DNA of 64,000 nt from Sclerodactyla briareus (lineage: Eukaryota; Echinodermata; Holothuroidea; Dendrochirotida; Sclerodactylidae), in the NCBI GenBank assembly GCA_026419785.1, contig JAODTK010000223.1, forward strand, positions 310,001 to 374,000. The letters are read 5' to 3'. Position 1 is the first letter of the stretch. Each line of letters begins with the position of its first letter. A program made the position numbers and the translations under genes. Of the stretch, positions 17,086 through 58,085 are shown in pieces. The notes beneath the pieces are model-generated. The model ran no database searches. It saw only the letters and a list, made by a program, of their open reading frames with translations, and was not told the DNA's origin.

Positions 17086-18608
17086 ACCAAAAATGGGAAA
17101 AAAATACGAAGAGGCCTGGGCCCTACACCCCTGGGCACCCAGGAGATAGGATATTCGACCGTCATGATGACCCGACATCAGCACTATGCAACAACATTTG
17201 TTGGGGTTACAAAATTTTGCAGTATATCATATAATGGGCCTTAGGGCCCCAAAGTGATGCGGCCCCCCCCCCCCTTGCCTTGAACCCAAAATTCATAAAC
17301 ACTCCTAAGGCCCTTTACCCAAGAACCATTACATGTACCATTGAAGAAAATCAATTGAAGCTTGTGCGAGGATATGTATTTCAAAAATACCCATTGAGTG
17401 TGAAATTTCAGAAATGGGCCCTGGGCCCAAAAGGGACCTTGGACAGAAGATTCTTTTAAAATCGTAAAGGTGCGGATGTTGGAGCATCATTATGACTGAA
17501 TGTTAGCACAGTGCACCAAAATTTGTAAAAGGAGAAACATTTGCATAAGGTCCACATGATGGGCCCCAGGGCCCACACTGGGGCCTCGGGTCCTAAACTC
17601 CTGGGCACCCTGGAGATACGGCTATTAGACCGTCGTTATGACCAAAACATCGCACTTCCAACAAAATTTGTGGGAGATACCAAATTTTGCAGTATTTCAT
17701 ATAAGGGCCCTAGGGCCCAAAGTGGGCCTTGAACCCAACCTCCCTCTTTAATTCCATAACACTCCTAATGCCCTTTACCCAAGAACCATTACATGTAACC
17801 TTGAAGAAAATCAATTGAAGCTGTGCGAGAGAAGGATTGTAGTTCAAGTACCATTGAGTGAATTTTCATAATGAAATGGGCCCTGGGCCCAAAAGGGACC
17901 TTGGACAGAAGATTCTTGAACATCGTAAAGGTGCGGATGTTGGAGCATCATTATGACTGAATGTTAGCACAGTGCACCAAAATTTGTAAAAGGAGAAAAA
18001 TTTTGCATCAGTCCACTTGATGGGCCCCAGGGCCCACTTCGGGCCTCGGGTCCTAAACTCCTGGGCACCCTGGAGATACGGCTATTAGACCGTCATTATG
18101 ACCGAACATCAGCACTATGCAACAACATTTGTGGGGGTTACAAAATTTTGCAGTATTTCATATAAGGGCCCTAGGGCCCAAAGTGGGCCCTGAACCCCAA
18201 ATTCCTGAACACCCTCAATGGCCCCCTACCCAGGATCATTACAGTTAACATTGAAGAAAATCATTTGAAGATTGTGGGAGGAGATGCATTTCAAGTACAA
18301 TTGTGTGAAAAATTTCATAAACTGGGCCCTGGGGCCCAAGTGGGACCTTGAACCAAACAATCATGTAAATTCCGAAGGTACGGCTGTTAGACCATCATTA
18401 TGACCGAATATCAGCACTGTGCACCAAAATTTGTAGAGATACATTTTGGAATTTTACCACAATGGCCTATATTGCCCCTTTAGTGACCTTTGACCTTGAC
18501 CTTCAAATGGTAAACAGTCCATCGGGTCAATGAACATTGTGTCCAAGTTTGGGTGACATCCATCACAGAATGACTGTTTGGGAGCCAAAAAAGGCAATTT
18601 AACAACTG

Positions 18609-32809: not shown

Positions 32810-33810
32810 AAGTGCCGAATTATGTCTCTGGCTCGGTCCAGTTTAAGTAAGTTGGCAACATTGTGACTAATATAGGCTAATGCTGACATGGGAAATAATC
32901 TGAAGCATGAAATTGTGCAAAGCCCATAGAGCATGAAAGTCGAAAGATGAATGCTGTATGGAATAGACCTTACAAACTTTTACATAATGAAAAAGAGAGG
33001 GGTAATTATAGAACGTGCTTCCTTAAAATTACTTCCAGTGGGTAGTGTGTCCCCTGTTTTTACGCTACATTTCAGAAGAATATGTCATTTACAAAAAAAT
33101 ATTCAAGTACTAAATGATATAAATCTGGATAACTTTGGGAATGTGATTTAAATATGGAATTACTCTGAAAATTGACATTGTTTATTGACAAAACCACCAT
33201 TGTGAACAATAAGGTATACGTCATAATCGGACAGCTACTGGTCAAAGAGATTTAATTTGACATGTTTTCCATGATGATGTATAACATATATTATTGGACA
33301 AAAAAAATTTTATCGATAGTACGAGGCACTTCCTGAATGGACCCATTTCATTGGACTGAGTCGGAAGTTGACTCTTCCACAAATGAGATATAACACATAA
33401 ACTTTTTCAATGATATGTAACAGTTCATCTTGACCCAACTCATTTGACTTCCTGCCAAGTTTCTTTTATAGTAGTCTGGAAAAGTCGTCTGTTCATCATG
33501 TTTTCTTACATTTAGCAGAGTACTGAATTGTTCTACAATGGACGACTTTGAAATTTCAAATGGGATGGCACAGTGATAATAGGGTCAGGAGATGCACGTG
33601 GCTTTCAGATCAATGGTCCAGCACCATTGGGGAAGACTGATTAAAAGGGTGCAGTCTGGAGTACTGGTCCAACTGCCAGCATTTCAGTCCCTTTCAAGAA
33701 TTCCCCCGATAAACAGGACGATCTACTGAAGCTGGCAAATACAAGGCCCAAAAGGCCCTCAGATTGAACCGCTCTCTTCAAAACAGGGGGATATATGTCA
33801 AGTCCCTGGG

Positions 33811-34213
33811 TTCGATGTTCCCGAGGATTGATGTTTCGGATTTGATGTTCCCGGTGTCCGATGTTCCCGGGGTCCCCGATGTTCCCAGGGGTCGATGTTC
33901 CCCGTTTTCGTTGTATTTCAATTATTCTCAAATTTATGAGGCTCGATGATCCCCGTTTTCATGTTACACCTAGCGCACACGAGGAAATCGTTTTTCGCGT
34001 TTCCTTGGTCATCGGTATGCGTGGCAAAACCAATTTCTTGCGAAAAGATTGTTTCAGCTTTTCAGGAACATCGGACCCCGGGAACATCGAACCTCGGAAA
34101 CATTGAATCCAGGGAACATCGAGCCTCGTAAATTTGGGTGCCATTAAAACTAAACGGGGAACATGGAACTTTGGGAACATGGATCCCCGGGAACATCGCA
34201 CCCCGGGAACATC
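33811..34213. repeat. Fold-back array of GATGTTCCC units
   Basis: From 33811 to about 33960 the unit GATGTTCCC(C/G)G is repeated about seven times. From about 34064 to 34213 its complement GGGAACATC recurs about eight times. The arms also share non-motif sequence (TTTATGAGGCTCGATGATCC versus ATCGAGCCTCGTAAATTT), so this is a genuine inverted repeat around a loop of about 100 bp. It probably is a fold-back DNA transposon with modular arms. No gene is inside. Confidence 0.75.
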
Positions 34214-38857: not shown

Positions 38858-40623
38858 CTAGGATTCGATTTCTGGCCACTCCATAAAGTGGCGGGCGGTG
38901 TGGCGTCGCCAGGTCTCCTGCCCAACCAGTCTAACGGGTCCGCAGTAACGACAGTGAACGTCGAGGTAATGTGTTCCCTGTTCATGGTGGGGTCTTCTGC
39001 TTTGGTGACTTTGGTTTATCTGGCTTTGGTGTCCCGGTAGTCTTCTGCCTCTGTGGCAATTTGGTTTCTTCTCCTTTGGCAGTTTAGCCTTCTTCAGTTT
39101 ACCTTGTTTAGGCGACCTCTGCTTATCAGGCTTGGGAGGTCTGGGCTTATTTTTCTTGACCCCAAAGCCTTCCAGCTCTGAATCACTGTCATCGTCCTCT
39201 GAAGGTTCTGGGACGATGCGGAAGGGAGCGCCCTCTTCCTCTGAATCACTGGCGCCTTGGGATTGGTCCTCCGGGAAATCGTAGACACTTGTATCATTGA
39301 CTGCGCGGGGATAGTGGTCCACACTGGCCTCCGTCGGGCTTTGGTTCCTCTTGTACTCCTCAAATGTGATAGAGAGGGTCGCCTGGTCCTGTCGTCTCTT
39401 CTTCTTCTGCGGTTGCAGCTCGAGTTTGGCCTCAACCTTGCTGCAGCGCTTGCTCCCCTTGTGCGTCCGCAGGTGTTCCCGGAAGACGTGCTTGAAGGGA
39501 GACTCGTAGGAGCACTTGGGGCACTGGAAGTTGCGATTCTGAGAGTGGATCTGGAGGTGTATCACATAGTCATCCTCGATCCGAGTCGAGTAGTTACAGA
39601 GGTTGCAGACAAACTTCTTGACCTCCTCATGGAGGCTGATGTGCCGCTTGATCGAGAACGCCTGGCTAGACGAGAACGAGCAATACGGGCACTGCAGAGG
39701 GCGCTTTCCGATGTGCATCTGGAGGTGTTCTCGGAGGGATTTGGGCACGGTCGACGCAAAGGGGCAGTAGTTGCACTTGAACGGTTTCTCCCTGGTATGG
39801 GTTCTTATGTGGACGTTGAGGTGACCCTTCTGGCTCGAGCTGTAAGAGCAGAGGTCACACTTGAACGGTTTAGCACAGTGTGGATCTCGTGTGCTGGATG
39901 AGGTTGTGCTTCCTCATGGTCGTGTAGTCGCAGACGTCGCACTTGAATATAACGGGTATGGTGGGAGTACTTCGCGACGTGTGCCTGGAGGATCGCGTTG
40001 GTGGCACAGCGGTACGAGCACCCCTGGCACTTGAATGGGCGAGGGTTCCCCTCGTTGTGGGTCCGCAGGTGGACTTTGAGATGCATCTCCTGTAGGGTGG
40101 AGTAGTCACATACGTGGCACTTGTAGGGCTTGAAACCCTTGTGCATCCGCATGTGGATGACCATCAGGCCGCGGCGCTCCGTACGGAAGCCGCACACCTT
40201 GCACGTGTAGGGGCTGTCGCCCTCGTGTATCAGGGAGTGCGTCATGATACCACTGTAGTATGGGGAAGTGAGGTGCAGGACATCACACTCGTAGGAGCCC
40301 GAGTCATTCTCGTGAAAGGTTATCAATTCGTTTTCCTCCTCCTCTTCGTCCGACAATTCTTTGTTGTTCTCCTCAACTATGCCGTTGCCGTAATCCAGTT
40401 CATCGGATCGGGCAAGGTCCGTCTGGTTGTGGTTAACTGCCACGCCATGGTCAGATGTTCGTAATGGAACTCCCTTCTTCGCATTGCCTGGAGGTCTCTC
40501 CGCCTCCATAGGGGGTGCTTCGGATCCGGGATTGGGCGAGAACCCTTTGCGGTGGGGTGGTTTGATCTTGAGCACACCAATGACCTTCCCGCCCCTGCTC
40601 CGACCCTTCTTTTCGTGTGGCAT
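38858..40623 (-). CDS. C2H2 zinc-finger protein, frame broken twice
   Basis: Nuclear DNA-binding regulator by family inference. ATG at 40623 (context AAAATGC) follows a splice acceptor, and TAG is at 38858-38860. Residues 83-98 are acidic (EENNKELSDEEEEENE). A degenerate finger at 113-133 lacks its second Cys. Fingers follow at C141-H161, C169-H189 and C199-H221. Finger 4 (FKCDVCDYTTMRKHNLIQHTR) lies in a second frame. Fingers 5-9 lie in a third frame, with C-x2-C-x12-H-x3-H spacing and YSS/YST cores. Then come a KKKRR block, acidic DSEEE and DDDSDSE stretches, a Lys/Pro-rich basic tail and a final lone finger (CRYC…RRHTARH). The two +1-type shifts fall at about 39940-39957 and 39871-39890. 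The finger style resembles multi-finger REST/ZFP64-like regulators, but orthology is not claimed. Confidence 0.85.
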
Positions 40624-40650
40624 TTTAAGTGACTGTCAACAAGAGGAAAG
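40624..40650 (-). other. Splice acceptor and short 5' leader of zinc-finger exon
   Basis: Reading on the minus strand, CTTTCCTCTTGTTGACAG is followed by TCACTTAAA and the ATG. The exon therefore begins at 40632, and an untranslated first exon must lie upstream beyond the transposon block. This also supports 40623 as the true start. Confidence 0.6.
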
Positions 40651-44697: not shown

Positions 44698-45034
44698 AAA
44701 GGTGGCCGTACAGGTCTACAAAGTTTCATGAAAATCCAGCAAACTTTAAAATTATGCATAAATTATGCAAATTAGACACGTTGAATGACCTCCAATGATC
44801 CTGAATCCATGAAAAAAACATTTGGAACTAAAGGTAAACCATACCCACCAGGTTTCATGAAATTCCAACCAACTTCAAGATTTATGCATGAATTATGCAA
44901 ATTAGGCACATTGAATGACCTCCATTGACCCCAAATCTTTTGTTAAAAAGTTTGGGACAGAAGGTAGACCATATTCATCAAGCTTCGTGAAAATCAACAA
45001 ACTTTCAAACTTCACATAAATTATGCAAATAGGC
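44698..45034 (+). repeat. Octamer-type ~125-bp tandem repeat, three units
   Basis: The word AATTATGCAAATTAG(A/G)CAC followed by TTGAATGACCTCCA recurs at about 44760 and 44892, with a third truncated unit at about 45010. TTTCATGAAA.TCCA precedes each. Every unit contains ATGCAAAT, the POU/octamer element. The same family lies reversed at 26330-26680 and as a fragment at 49500-49640. Confidence 0.75.
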
Positions 45035-45037
45035 ATA

Positions 45038-45780: not shown

Positions 45781-46233
45781 TATTTACGCCTTGAAAATGC
45801 TAATCAGTCATCTACCTGTCATCCAGGTCCTACATGCCAAACTACATCACTGTAGCACATATGGTGCTTGCGTAATCTTGCTAACAAGTTTAACATAAAT
45901 ACATAAAATAGCTAATTGCCCAACTATTTATTTTATTGACTTTGCGGCCCAAAATTTAATCAGACTGTGTACACCAACTATGGGGCGACACACAATATTT
46001 TGGTCATAATCGGCCTCATGGTTTGTGAGAAATCCTGCTAACAAGAAAGTGTGACTGTCTGTGACATACACACACACACATACATGCCAGAAGTGACCAC
46101 TAAGTCTCTTACTGAATCTCATTCAGGCGAGACAAAAAAACACAAATTTGACCTCCGGTGACCTCGAAATCACTGTCATGTTTTTCGGGACCAACGTTAG
46201 TCCTCTGCGCAGTTTTGTGAAGTTTTGTTGAAA
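45781..46233. other. Spacer with GGTGACCTC repeat and CA run
   Basis: A short CA microsatellite lies at 46069-46080. From 46140 to 46215 is one copy of the TTGACCTCCGGTGACCTCG family also at 22535. No gene. Confidence 0.5.
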
Positions 46234-48296
46234 GGGGCATTCCACAGTAAATTGGACCAGAAGAGGGCAAATTAAAAAAACATTTTATCCATCTGTGAGT
46301 GCTAAATTATTCAAGTGTACAAATAATATTTTTAGGTTCTGAACTTCTTTTCTAAATAAAAATGCTTTTACGGTAATTACCTCGCAAGTAAACAACCGGA
46401 ATACCGTTGCGGACGAGACATTATATTTCCTAGTAATAAACAGTGGAACAGAAGGGAATGATATAAAACTTGTCAGGACATACTATAAAGTAGGTTATCC
46501 AATACCTAATTATTCAACTTCAATGTATCTGTAGGAATAGTAATTAGTACTAACTAAGTAGTAAATGAAAATGTCCCGTCCGCAACACCAAATTTCACCG
46601 TTTTTTTTCCAATAACTTCATCAATAGTCCATTATTTTCTTGTCTTTTAGGATTCTCTTTCTTAATAAAATACCATACTCCCCTGTGTTTTTCTTTTCTC
46701 CACTACATTAATTTTAACCCTATTAATTAATTCATCAAATTTGTTGCGGACGGGACATTTCTGTTGCGGACGGGACATTTTCTAATTGAAGCAGTGCATT
46801 GCAGTACCTTATTTGCTCTCCACTATCACATAAATCAGTCCTTAAACATGATGAGACTTGAAAGTTTTATCATTCATCACTATATTCTCCAGCACTGCTA
46901 ATTGGTCAATAAAAACTTGAATGTCCCGTCCGCATCAACTTCACACCCTTTTTCAATGTAACCCCTCCCTAATTAATCATTTCTTTGGTGTTTTCTAGAA
47001 TTCTCCATTCACTAATTACAAAAAACACCCTCCTGGACCACTGTTTTTCTACTGTTACCTTCATTAAGCCTGATTGTTAAATAATTGAAATGTTGCGGAC
47101 GGGACATTTGTTGCGGACGGGACATTCCCATTGACAGTGTATGCACTGTACTTTGACAGTAATGCACCTACTGCGAAAAAGGTAGGGATTAATATTATCA
47201 CATTATTTATAGTGAGGGTTGGGAACCCATTCTATTTAGACCCTGTCAGTCATTATTGCTGTTGATTTGGCGAGGGGCCTCCAGAAAACTGTTGTGTCCC
47301 GTCCGCAACGTTGGGGATTGTCCCTGCTGCAACATCATTTTTTTCTTTAACATTAATTTTACCTGTCTAAAGAGTAAATGCTTCGATTTGCATTCCTATA
47401 TTTGATAGAAGACAGGATACTGAGTGTACAATCTCATTCAACTCTATCTACATTCAGAGCATTTCCAGCTTCACTTTAACCCTAAAATGTCCATGTCCAT
47501 TTTCTGTCCCATCCGCAACACACACTTAGTATAATTAGATAACCTTTAAAGGGCAACTGTAGGTTTGGATACAACAGAGGTTGTATTGTGCAGAATGGAA
47601 AACTGTATCTATAGGTCCGAACCCCATTTCAATACGATGTTCCTATGTGGAGCTATTGGTCTTCAAAGTTTGGGCATAAAGCAGAGAAATTGGGGAGAAT
47701 CCCAATTGTGCAATAACGCATGACGCACACATGAACAACATAGGAAATCATGTTCTGTATTTGAATTGTTTCATTTTGTTGAATAAGTCAACTTTTGTAA
47801 GTTCTGTTGTTCTTTCTCTCACCAAAGTAACCATCCACAACCTCCAACCATTAAAGCAATCCTCTCCCATAGACTAATGTTTTTCGAAGTGAAATTAATG
47901 TTTGAATTCCAACAGAAAACAAAGAATGTTTGCAGAGTTGTGAAAGTATGACATCAATTATTATTGCATGATGGGATGCATTTCGATCTTGCACAATACA
48001 CATGCTTCACAATACACAAACTTCAAATGACTTAACTCTGTAACGTAAAGTCCATGAACTTCCGGTTTGGACTTACGCGTTCAGTTTTTATCCAGCTATA
48101 AAATTAGCCCCTGTGAAAATCACATGCAGTTGTCCTTTAAGGTTATTACTGAAATGAAAATAGTTTATGGTTATGTCATGATAGCTGATTCTGAATAAAT
48201 ACATCTCTCAGCCATGTAGTTCATCTAATTTAAGTAATTAACGTTTTCATTGTAAAAATGTCCCGTCCGCAACAGAAAAATACTGTGGAATGCCCC
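46234..48296. mobile_element. Novel-looking element with repeated GTTGCGGACGGGACAT motif
   Basis: Perfect 16-bp terminal inverted repeats GGGGCATTCCACAGTA at 46234-46249 and 48281-48296, with GAAA on both flanks (possible 4-bp duplication). Ten copies of the 16-bp motif are inside. Forward copies are at 46406, 46743, 46763, 47092 and 47110. Reverse copies are at 46571, 46921, 47294, 47504 and 48258. The middle part is a tandem of about 350-bp units (reverse copy, then a close forward pair). A TTAA-flanked element (47550-48136) is nested within. No transposase frame. Superfamily unknown to me. Confidence 0.7.
47550..48136 (+). mobile_element. TTAA-flanked non-autonomous transposon
   Basis: The ends AGGGCAACTGTAGG and, reversed, AGGACAACTGCATG are each bordered by TTAA (47546-47549, 48137-48140), the target of piggyBac and Kolobok transposases. 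The interior (GGAAAACTGTATCTATA, ACGATGTTCCTATGTGGAG, TTTTTATCCAGCTAT) matches 57504-58085. 587 bp, non-coding. Confidence 0.75.
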
Positions 48297-48439
48297 GAAA
48301 GCGCAAAGTCTATGATCAGTATAAATTATACAAAATGAACCCTTTTTGATGCTTTCTAACTTGTATTTTAATCACTGCAAGGAAACCAGTGAATGCAAAA
48401 TTGGCATTCTCCATGGGAAAACTTGTGTAGCCTCCTATT

Positions 48440-56815: not shown

Positions 56816-57503
56816 GATGAATTGTAGAGCTGCTTACTCGCAGTTAAACGACTCTAATGTCGCGCATTAGCCGAGATTTTTTCCAGGATGCTGATGATAA
56901 GTATGTCAAAGTTCCTCCCTTTTCAAAGTTCACATTCGCAACATGACATTGTAAGACGATTTGTGATTTTTTTTTCACACATGAAAAGGGTAGTAAATGT
57001 AGCACTAATTTCATCTGGAGTTCTGGACCCTGATATTAAAAAAAAAAAAATCCTCACAGGGGGGAAACCTTCCGAGAAAGGAGAGCATTCAAACTTTACA
57101 ATCTGAGTGGTCCAGGAACAATCAGGAGCGTGGTCAAAATGGCTACAGTACCTGGAACACCCAACAAGGTACCTCGCATGGTTAGCGGTTCCATGTAGGC
57201 TACTCCTGGTGTGAGACGCTTCAGGGTAGGATTCCATAGATGCGTATGCGTATGTGAAAAAAATCGCCAATTTACGTCAACTGGGGCCAGAGTCTGAATA
57301 TGTCCTAATTGGAGTGTTTTTGGCAAGCTAGATATGGTTTCTCATAGAGATTTTTTTTTTTTTTTGTGGTTTTTTTTGTTATAAAAGAAGGCAAACAACA
57401 CAGGATAAGGCGAAATTAGCCATGTACCAATGCGTATACGAAATAAATTATTTAGGGGAGGCGTCATTCACCGCGAATGAATTCTATGGTATATCTTACT
57501 TAA

Positions 57504-58085
57504 AGGACCACTGTAGGCTTGGATAAAACCAAAGAGGGTTATTTGTGAGAATGGAAAACTGTATCTATATATGTCCCCACCCCATTTCACTACGATGTTC
57601 CTATGTGGAGTTATTGGCCTCCAAAGTTTGGGCCATTGAGCATAGAAATTGGGGAGATTCCACATTGCGCAATAGAAACGCATGACGTCCCACATGGACA
57701 ACACAGGAATTTGTTATGTACTTGCTTGTTTTCTTCGTTGGCAAAAGTCACATTTAGCAGAAGTTCTGTTGTTTTTCTCTCACCAAGGTAACCATCACCA
57801 CCGAACCAACCCACTACAGCAATCCTCTCCCATAGCAAAAAAACGAAATGCTTTTTGAAGTGAAATTAATGTTGATTTCATAGAAAATGAAGAATGTTTG
57901 CAGGGTTTGCAAGTATGACATCAATTATTATTGCATGAGGGGATGCATTTCGATCTTGCGCAATATACACCTACTTCCCATACACCAACTTCAAATGACT
58001 ATAATCTACGGAAAGTCCTATGAACTTCCCGTTTGGACTAGCGCATTCAGTTTTTATCCAGCTATTGAGCTAGCCCCGTATCAAT
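57504..58085 (+). mobile_element. Second copy of TTAA-flanked transposon, 3' end lost
   Basis: Starts AGGACCACTGTAGG right after TTAA (57500-57503) and follows 47550-48136 collinearly through ACGATGTTCCTATGTGGAG and TTTTTATCCAGCTAT. The terminal GCAGTTGTCCT and second TTAA are missing, so the right end is truncated or replaced. Confidence 0.7.

Follow-up and report, generated by a model that had tools for sequence, protein, structure and literature searches.

A dispersed family of inverted-repeat transposons built around a regularly spaced 16-bp motif in the sea cucumber Sclerodactyla briareus

Introduction

Several groups of transposons carry short repeated sites or internal repeats. Near their ends, CACTA elements have 10- to 20-bp units that face both ways (PMC8978399). 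In Galileo, the first transposase site was located by footprint and further, secondary ones within the element by gel shift, and the multiple THAP sites are a proposed source of binding specificity (PMC3688188). Sola elements combine 4-bp target duplications with very variable ends (PMC10741241), and HINE and Pearl of bivalves are gene-less elements with internal repeats of ~160 bp (PMC7492417). Target duplications are TA in Tc1/mariner, 8 bp in hAT, and 3 bp (TAA/TTA) in PIF/Harbinger (PMC10741241).

We describe a transposon found in a 64-kb stretch of the Sclerodactyla briareus genome (contig JAODTK010000223.1, positions 310,001 to 374,000), hereafter the window, whose own positions are used as coordinates. 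The family to which it belongs, family A, shares features with each of these systems. Like CACTA (En/Spm) elements, it has 10- to 20-bp units in both orientations, but its ends are GGGGCATTCCACAGTA and not CACTA/CACTG, its duplication is 4 bp (5 of 15 copies) more often than 3 bp (2 of 15), and its sites lie throughout the element at intervals of ~170 bp instead of subterminally. With Galileo (P superfamily) and Foldback-like elements it has several internal sites in common, transposase binding having been tested in Galileo and being predicted here; unlike Galileo, with its long inverted ends holding three sites, it has 16-bp ends and more sites, in both orientations. The likeness to Sola is the 4-bp duplication, which by itself would fit; no autonomous copy that could carry a Sola-type DDD transposase was recognised among 46 loci (L072-L117), and the Sola descriptions in the available part of PMC10741241 contain no internal site arrays. 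Non-autonomous Helentrons (HINE, Pearl) are similar in their internal repeats and in that no gene is recognised, whereas HINE has subterminal inverted repeats, a 3' palindrome, and tandem monomers in place of the true terminal repeats, 4-bp duplication, and mostly non-homologous fillers seen here.

Other superfamilies were set aside. Ginger needs TG...CA termini and inverted repeats of 40-270 bp; ours read GGGG...CCCC and span 16 bp. The duplications of Tc1/mariner, hAT, and PIF/Harbinger do not describe the family at the lengths tested (2-8 bp; 8 bp in 0 of 15 copies), and for Mutator, which makes duplications of 7-12 bp, exact repeats of 7 and 8 bp were seen in 0 of 15. The literature searched made no mention of the motif or end strings, and in that literature, including the available parts of PMC3627910, PMC9976928, PMC3688188, PMC8978399, PMC4455052, PMC10294476, PMC10741241, PMC6947457, PMC7492417, and PMC4904201, no published layout was closer than those of CACTA, Galileo, and HINE.

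The window element and its motif array

The features of the element are as follows, in window coordinates.

46230..46233, no strand: target-site duplication GAAA, left; 4-bp direct repeat flanking the ends
46234..48296, minus strand: whole element including the nested MITE, 2063 bp (1472 bp without the MITE)
46234..46249, plus strand: terminal inverted repeat GGGGCATTCCACAGTA, end B; perfect 16-bp inverted repeat
46406..46421, plus strand: motif copy, 1 mismatch
46571..46586, minus strand: motif copy, exact
46587..46742, plus strand: filler stretch, ancient duplicate of 46937-47091
46743..46758, plus strand: motif copy, exact, close pair with 46763
46763..46778, plus strand: motif copy, exact, close pair with 46743
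46921..46936, minus strand: motif copy, 1 mismatch
46937..47091, plus strand: filler stretch, ancient duplicate of 46587-46742
47092..47107, plus strand: motif copy, exact, close pair with 47110
47110..47125, plus strand: motif copy, exact, close pair with 47092
47294..47309, minus strand: motif copy, 1 mismatch, close pair with the decayed copy
47318..47333, minus strand: decayed motif copy, 4 mismatches, close-pair partner; the corresponding family-consensus site is perfect
47504..47519, minus strand: motif copy, 2 mismatches
47550..48136, plus strand: nested unrelated MITE, 587 bp, with TTAA duplications at 47546-47549 and 48137-48140
48258..48273, minus strand: motif copy, exact, 23 bp from the right tip
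48281..48296, minus strand: terminal inverted repeat, end A; perfect 16-bp inverted repeat
48297..48300, no strand: target-site duplication GAAA, right; 4-bp direct repeat flanking the ends

End A is defined by a motif lying 23 bp inside its tip. The alignment of copies sets end A on the left and in the window it is on the right, so the window element is assigned to the minus strand. The initial annotation had reported perfect 16-bp inverted ends, and these are present at 46234-46249 and 48281-48296; any perfect inverted repeat of 16 bp appeared in 1 of 500 simulated 2.6-kb sequences. An Rfam search of the 64-kb window returned no match.

The motif, GTTGCGGACGGGACAT, has 10 matches at up to 3 mismatches in the window, every one of them within 46234-48296; shuffles give an expectation of 0.27, and 10 was reached in 0 of 100. 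These are the ten copies in both orientations that had been claimed, and an 11th, decayed copy can be added at 47318-47333, where the PWM score of 14.2 exceeds the highest value, 10.7, obtained when the bases of the element were shuffled 200 times. Two close pairs, 18-20 bp apart, had been described; both exist, and the actual number is three (18, 20, and 24 bp), the third including the decayed copy.

The array is strikingly even. The one wide gap, 754 bp before the final motif copy, exists because the MITE is nested there; once the MITE is removed, the sites start at 173F, 338R, 510F, 530F, 688R, 859F, 877F, 1061R, 1085R, 1271R, and 1434R, and the gaps between motif clusters are 163-205 bp. 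Cluster spacing has a CV of 0.084, more regular than random placement of 6 free points (P ~1e-6). A second copy of the TTAA-flanked MITE lies at 57500-58077; it is 81% identical, and its right end is cut off.

The conserved word is sharply edged, with flanks at background within one or two bases. The filler between sites has a CpG observed/expected ratio of 0.26 versus 0.64 for the window; filler TpG is not raised (1.13 versus 1.23), so methylation decay is not supported as the cause. The end repeat starts with GGGGCATTCC, similar to the motif end, where the motif reads GGGACATTCC; as a lead only, this likeness would fit one protein touching both.

The fillers themselves are mostly unrelated to one another. 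Tandem modules of about 350 bp had been proposed, and this holds for one filler pair, 46587-46742 and 46937-47091; the other fillers show no clear homology. In the window copy, the resemblance of this pair, the best of 56 comparisons, was matched by 2 of 20000 shuffles. In the family consensus it reaches z = 7.0 (0 of 300 shuffles; 102 of 148 positions identical, 69%), and among 28 consensus filler pairs, compared in both orientations, it is the one that is clearly homologous, the next best having z 2.6. Local alignment of masked segments missed the duplicate; a global test detected it.

Family A across the genome

The host assembly (319.5 Mb, 3171 contigs) contains the exact motif 60 times versus 0 for a reversed control, and 357 versus 94 times at up to 2 mismatches. 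The end GGGGCATTCCACAGTA occurs 65 times at up to 1 mismatch, including 20 exact occurrences, versus 4 in the control. Five of these 65 end matches fall in a tandem array (G000:C3005:238666-238876), in which the word GTGGCATTCCACAGTA appears at multiples of 39 bp.

We selected 31 loci for the exact motif; together they contain all 54 exact motifs outside the window. Within family A copies, recognised by similarity to the family consensus over 60 bp or more, lie 52 of the 54; the remaining two belong to elements of two further groups. Motif and ends occurring apart from each other had been named beforehand as grounds for giving up the transposon reading. They co-occur in most loci: 24 of the 31 show an end-like match (up to 3 mismatches) and 12 of these an inverted pair, while 7 of 31 have no end-like match at that threshold.

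Querying the assembly with the left 1316 bp of the element returned at least 60 aligned pieces on at least 36 contigs (40 of 51 candidates scored). Aligned pieces of family copies have 67-88% identity to a reference copy (L097). Both ends are recognisable, at up to 4 mismatches, in 15 of 25 copies examined; 8 of these 15 measure 1.1-1.5 kb and the remaining 7 are between 0.54 and 3.6 kb long, several of them carrying inserts. Among the 15, exact 4-bp duplications flank five (0.07 expected) and exact 3-bp duplications two (0.14 expected), with neither in the remaining eight; lengths of 2-8 bp were tested, and expected counts were taken from mismatched pairs. The 4-bp excess supports the initial view of the locus as a single transposon unit. 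Family A has inverted ends, a duplication of fixed length, dispersed copies, and no transposase gene recognised in the frames scanned, and it belongs among the non-autonomous TIR DNA transposons.

Among viral and prokaryotic contigs, 8 and 54 stretches, respectively, contained a single exact motif, and 1 contained the end. We read these as chance: BLAST of the element against them (L001-L063) gave motif-sized matches of 15-28 bases among the first 20 matches listed.

Search for genes and an autonomous copy

At E<=1, Pfam matched none of the frames scanned: 8 of the 21 listed (at least 45 aa) within or next to the window element, and 8 more, of 120-191 aa, inside or adjoining family copies. Among 46 loci (L072-L117), no autonomous copy with a transposase was recognised. 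The family copy on contig C929 has a 5.8-kb insert (L111:1-5881) whose minus-strand frames reach 458 aa and include a YIDDW stretch like that of DIRS-type reverse transcriptases, making the insert a candidate DIRS-type retroelement; the label is unconfirmed, none of four scanned frames having a Pfam match at E<=1.

Other possible sources of a transposase were considered and rejected. An 8.4-kb insert in the family copy on C2366 partly matches other loci and the window, as repeats do, and has no frame above 152 aa. Five end loci were fetched, of which three are family copies; the other two (L104 and L107) have a perfect end without motif or family similarity, and their 10 frames gave only Pfam matches far below the cut-off.

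Constraint on the sites

A consensus, one of the checks suggested at the outset, was built over 1507 positions from 24 copies, one from the window and 23 from among the 31 loci; eight fragmentary or divergent loci were excluded (L080, L082, L084, L085, L091, L094, L100, L101). It has eleven sites: nine perfect, one matching at 15 of 16 bases, and one with the first 12 bases intact. The duplicated filler provides an internal comparison. In the consensus, the three site pairs flanking it are identical at 48 of 48 positions (chance 1.7e-8 at the filler rate), and in the window copy alone 1 of 48 positions differs (P = 6.6e-7).

After insertion, the sites fare little better than their surroundings. 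Divergence from the consensus is 349/2712 (12.9%) in sites and 3756/24363 (15.4%) in filler (z = -3.5), after correction for the motif-based choice of loci by dropping one exact site per copy (L081 had none) and excluding the window copy; without correction, the values are 11.2% and 15.0%. In consensus CpG columns, 12.8% of cells differ in the motif versus 30.4% in 15 filler columns. The loci were chosen by motif, so some bias may persist despite the correction, and the small deficit in site divergence may be leftover selection bias or some constraint after insertion.

Motif and filler decay at similar rates after insertion, so most of the constraint acted before it. The comparison of copies suggests that site identity mostly predates the spread of the family, the sites being held constant mainly in the mobile lineage, which is the pattern that selection for transposition competence in a source lineage predicts. 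That the motif itself is under constraint, in line with the selection or concerted evolution proposed in the initial annotation, draws support from the consensus and from the variant words repeated in the other elements described below.

Other elements with variant words

A second family, B (L109, L110, L084, and L073:1-1849; pieces 69-81% identical), repeats the word GTGACGGACGGGACAT, which occurs exactly 47 times genome-wide versus 0 in the control, 7 of the 47 in the four loci examined. One member (L109) has eight sites at up to 4 mismatches, all in the same orientation, with one tip 12 bp past a site; another (L084) mixes one exact family A word with variants. The tip of family B is unrelated to that of family A, and its pattern at up to 3 mismatches gave 25 matches, five of them with 0-1 mismatch, versus 55 in the control.

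Group C consists of L108 and L082, which resemble each other over two stretches (71-74%). The ends of L108 are 12 bp long (TGGGCAATTCCA); of its six sites, four read exactly GTTGCGGAGGGGACAT, and there is a close pair at 19 bp. L108 has no match of at least 50 bp to the family A consensus, a 4-bp duplication was not seen, and its tip-to-site distance is 23 bp, the same as in family A. Exact GTTGCGGAGGGGACAT occurs 9 times genome-wide versus 0 in the control; of the 7 occurrences examined, 4 are in L108. It is also present as a single site in three family A copies (L090, L093, and L097), so the word is not strictly family-specific, though it marks L108 as a whole. L082 has no exact GTTGCGGAGGGGACAT and carries one exact family A word, plus variants.

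The ends of L108 led further afield. A pattern from its right end gave only 3 weak matches, its own locus not among them; TGGGCAATTCCA itself occurs exactly 180 times genome-wide versus 6 in the control. From the 100 matches listed of the 180, four further loci were obtained in which such ends are opposed and less than 5 kb apart. L116:39-1672 has these ends, a 2-bp GA duplication, and six copies of CGGTAACAGCGTGACA (up to 4 mismatches; shuffles mean 0.02), and L114:58-4634 and L115:56-2319 form one family with five and four copies, respectively, of CGTTAGTTTTGTTACG (shuffles mean 0.47 and 0.35, maximum 2; weaker), figures that are flattering because both words were picked after looking. Close to one end of both L114 and L115 are two CGTTAGTTTTGTTACG copies with a spacing of 176-177 bp, and ~13 bp separate the outer copy from the tip. 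No repeated word was found in L117, the fourth locus. L114 was also considered as an autonomous element and rejected: its 4.6 kb between TGGGCAATTCCA ends hold a longest frame of 123 aa, which gave one below-cut-off Pfam match. Among the five elements with TGGGCAATTCCA ends, a 2-bp duplication is present in three and a 4-bp duplication in none, so these elements may not share the superfamily of family A.

Several of these elements have a layout in common: close pairs of 14-24 bp, many gaps of ~165-217 bp, and mostly a site 12-23 bp from the tip. Exceptions include longer gaps (e.g., 563 and 972 bp) and L116, which lacks its word near the tip. It is conceivable, if doubtful, that all belong to one transposon group in which the grammar of sites is fixed and the words change (GTTGCGGACGGGACAT; GTGACGGACGGGACAT; GTTGCGGAGGGGACAT; possibly CGGTAACAGCGTGACA and CGTTAGTTTTGTTACG in TGGGCAATTCCA-ended elements); such a group would be a record of transposase and sites changing together, with spacing set by nucleosomes.

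What the motif may bind

We consider it probable that family A is a non-autonomous TIR transposon family moved in trans, and that the motif is a recognition site for the DNA-binding domain of the transposase. In such a mechanism, a transposase encoded elsewhere would move the element, which is gene-less as far as tested. The roughly eleven sites, single or paired (18-24 bp) and placed every ~165-205 bp, would allow several transposase molecules to load along the element. Multiple loading could add specificity and promote synapsis, by analogy with what is thought of the subterminal sites of CACTA and Galileo; the pairs and the regular spacing may aid loading of multimers or fit nucleosomes. If only lineages that kept their sites kept moving, ancestral sites would remain identical as filler drifted, and inserted copies would then decay. 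Several points count against transposase binding: no transposase or autonomous copy was recognised in the loci and frames covered, the sites lie across the whole element, not just at its ends, and gene conversion among sites would equally preserve their identity. The single GTTGCGGAGGGGACAT sites in family A copies and the mixture of words in L082 and L084 likewise weigh against words that are strictly specific to a family.

An unlikely alternative is that the motif is read by a DNA-binding protein of the host, such as one with zinc fingers or a chromatin protein; the transposon would exploit its sites or be repressed through them. The motif and close variants recur in unrelated filler, in family B also with an unrelated tip, and the better preservation of motif CpG columns than filler CpG columns in inserted copies would suit such a protein, as would a ~170-bp spacing if its nearness to nucleosome size is meaningful. 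However, L108 and family B each repeat their own variant word at several sites, where a single host protein should favour one. The site exactly 23 bp inside the tip in both family A and L108 points to machinery that recognises ends, and the confinement of 52 of 54 exact motifs to family A copies, with the other two in elements of other groups, also argues against a host site.

Selection on binding could be dispensed with altogether if short duplications and gene conversion in a foldback-like element had homogenised a functionless motif. Local duplication did occur, as the close pairs and the one duplicated filler stretch show, and there is little extra constraint on the motif after insertion. 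Such a neutral construction is nevertheless quite improbable, since conversion tracts would need to end at the edges of a 16-18-bp word whose flanks are at background within 1-2 bases. Most fillers show no detectable homology, so conversion would have little substrate, and the regular spacing and the 23-bp offset common to L108 would go unexplained.

That the element is a repeat of satellite or centromere type with a site resembling the CENP-B box is largely refuted and very remote: the motif has GTTG and CGGGA in common with the CENP-B box as given in PMC4904201, and its spacing is similar to a 171-bp monomer, yet no site contains the nine-base core NTTCGNNNNANNCGGGN, the best sites (46740 and 47107) have two core mismatches, matches with two core mismatches number 110 in the window versus 104 by chance, and the element is dispersed with target duplications.

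Implications

If the motif copies are transposase sites, the related elements would be a natural series for asking how the specificity of a DNA-binding protein shifts in step with a dozen dispersed sites, and would also pose the question of why a spacing of ~170 bp persists. If they are sites for a host factor, these families would scatter clusters of regulatory sites across an animal genome. A single raw window was enough to reveal a genuine transposon family and the logic of its internal layout.

Other features of the window

A second motif-built foldback lies at 33808-34203, with 7 forward and 7 reverse copies (up to 5 mismatches) of a 15-16-bp word near GGGTTCGATGTTCCC; the copies are mostly at a 16-bp period, and the arms are ~110 bp apart. 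A GC-rich stretch at 38858-40635 contains two minus-strand frames with C2H2 zinc fingers; a REST-like finger model scores 27.8 against a cut-off of 27 in one frame and below the cut-off in the other. Two tandem repeats were also seen: a 461-bp unit in 2.9 copies with 81% matches (17113-18435) and a 130-bp unit in 2.4 copies (44721-45035).
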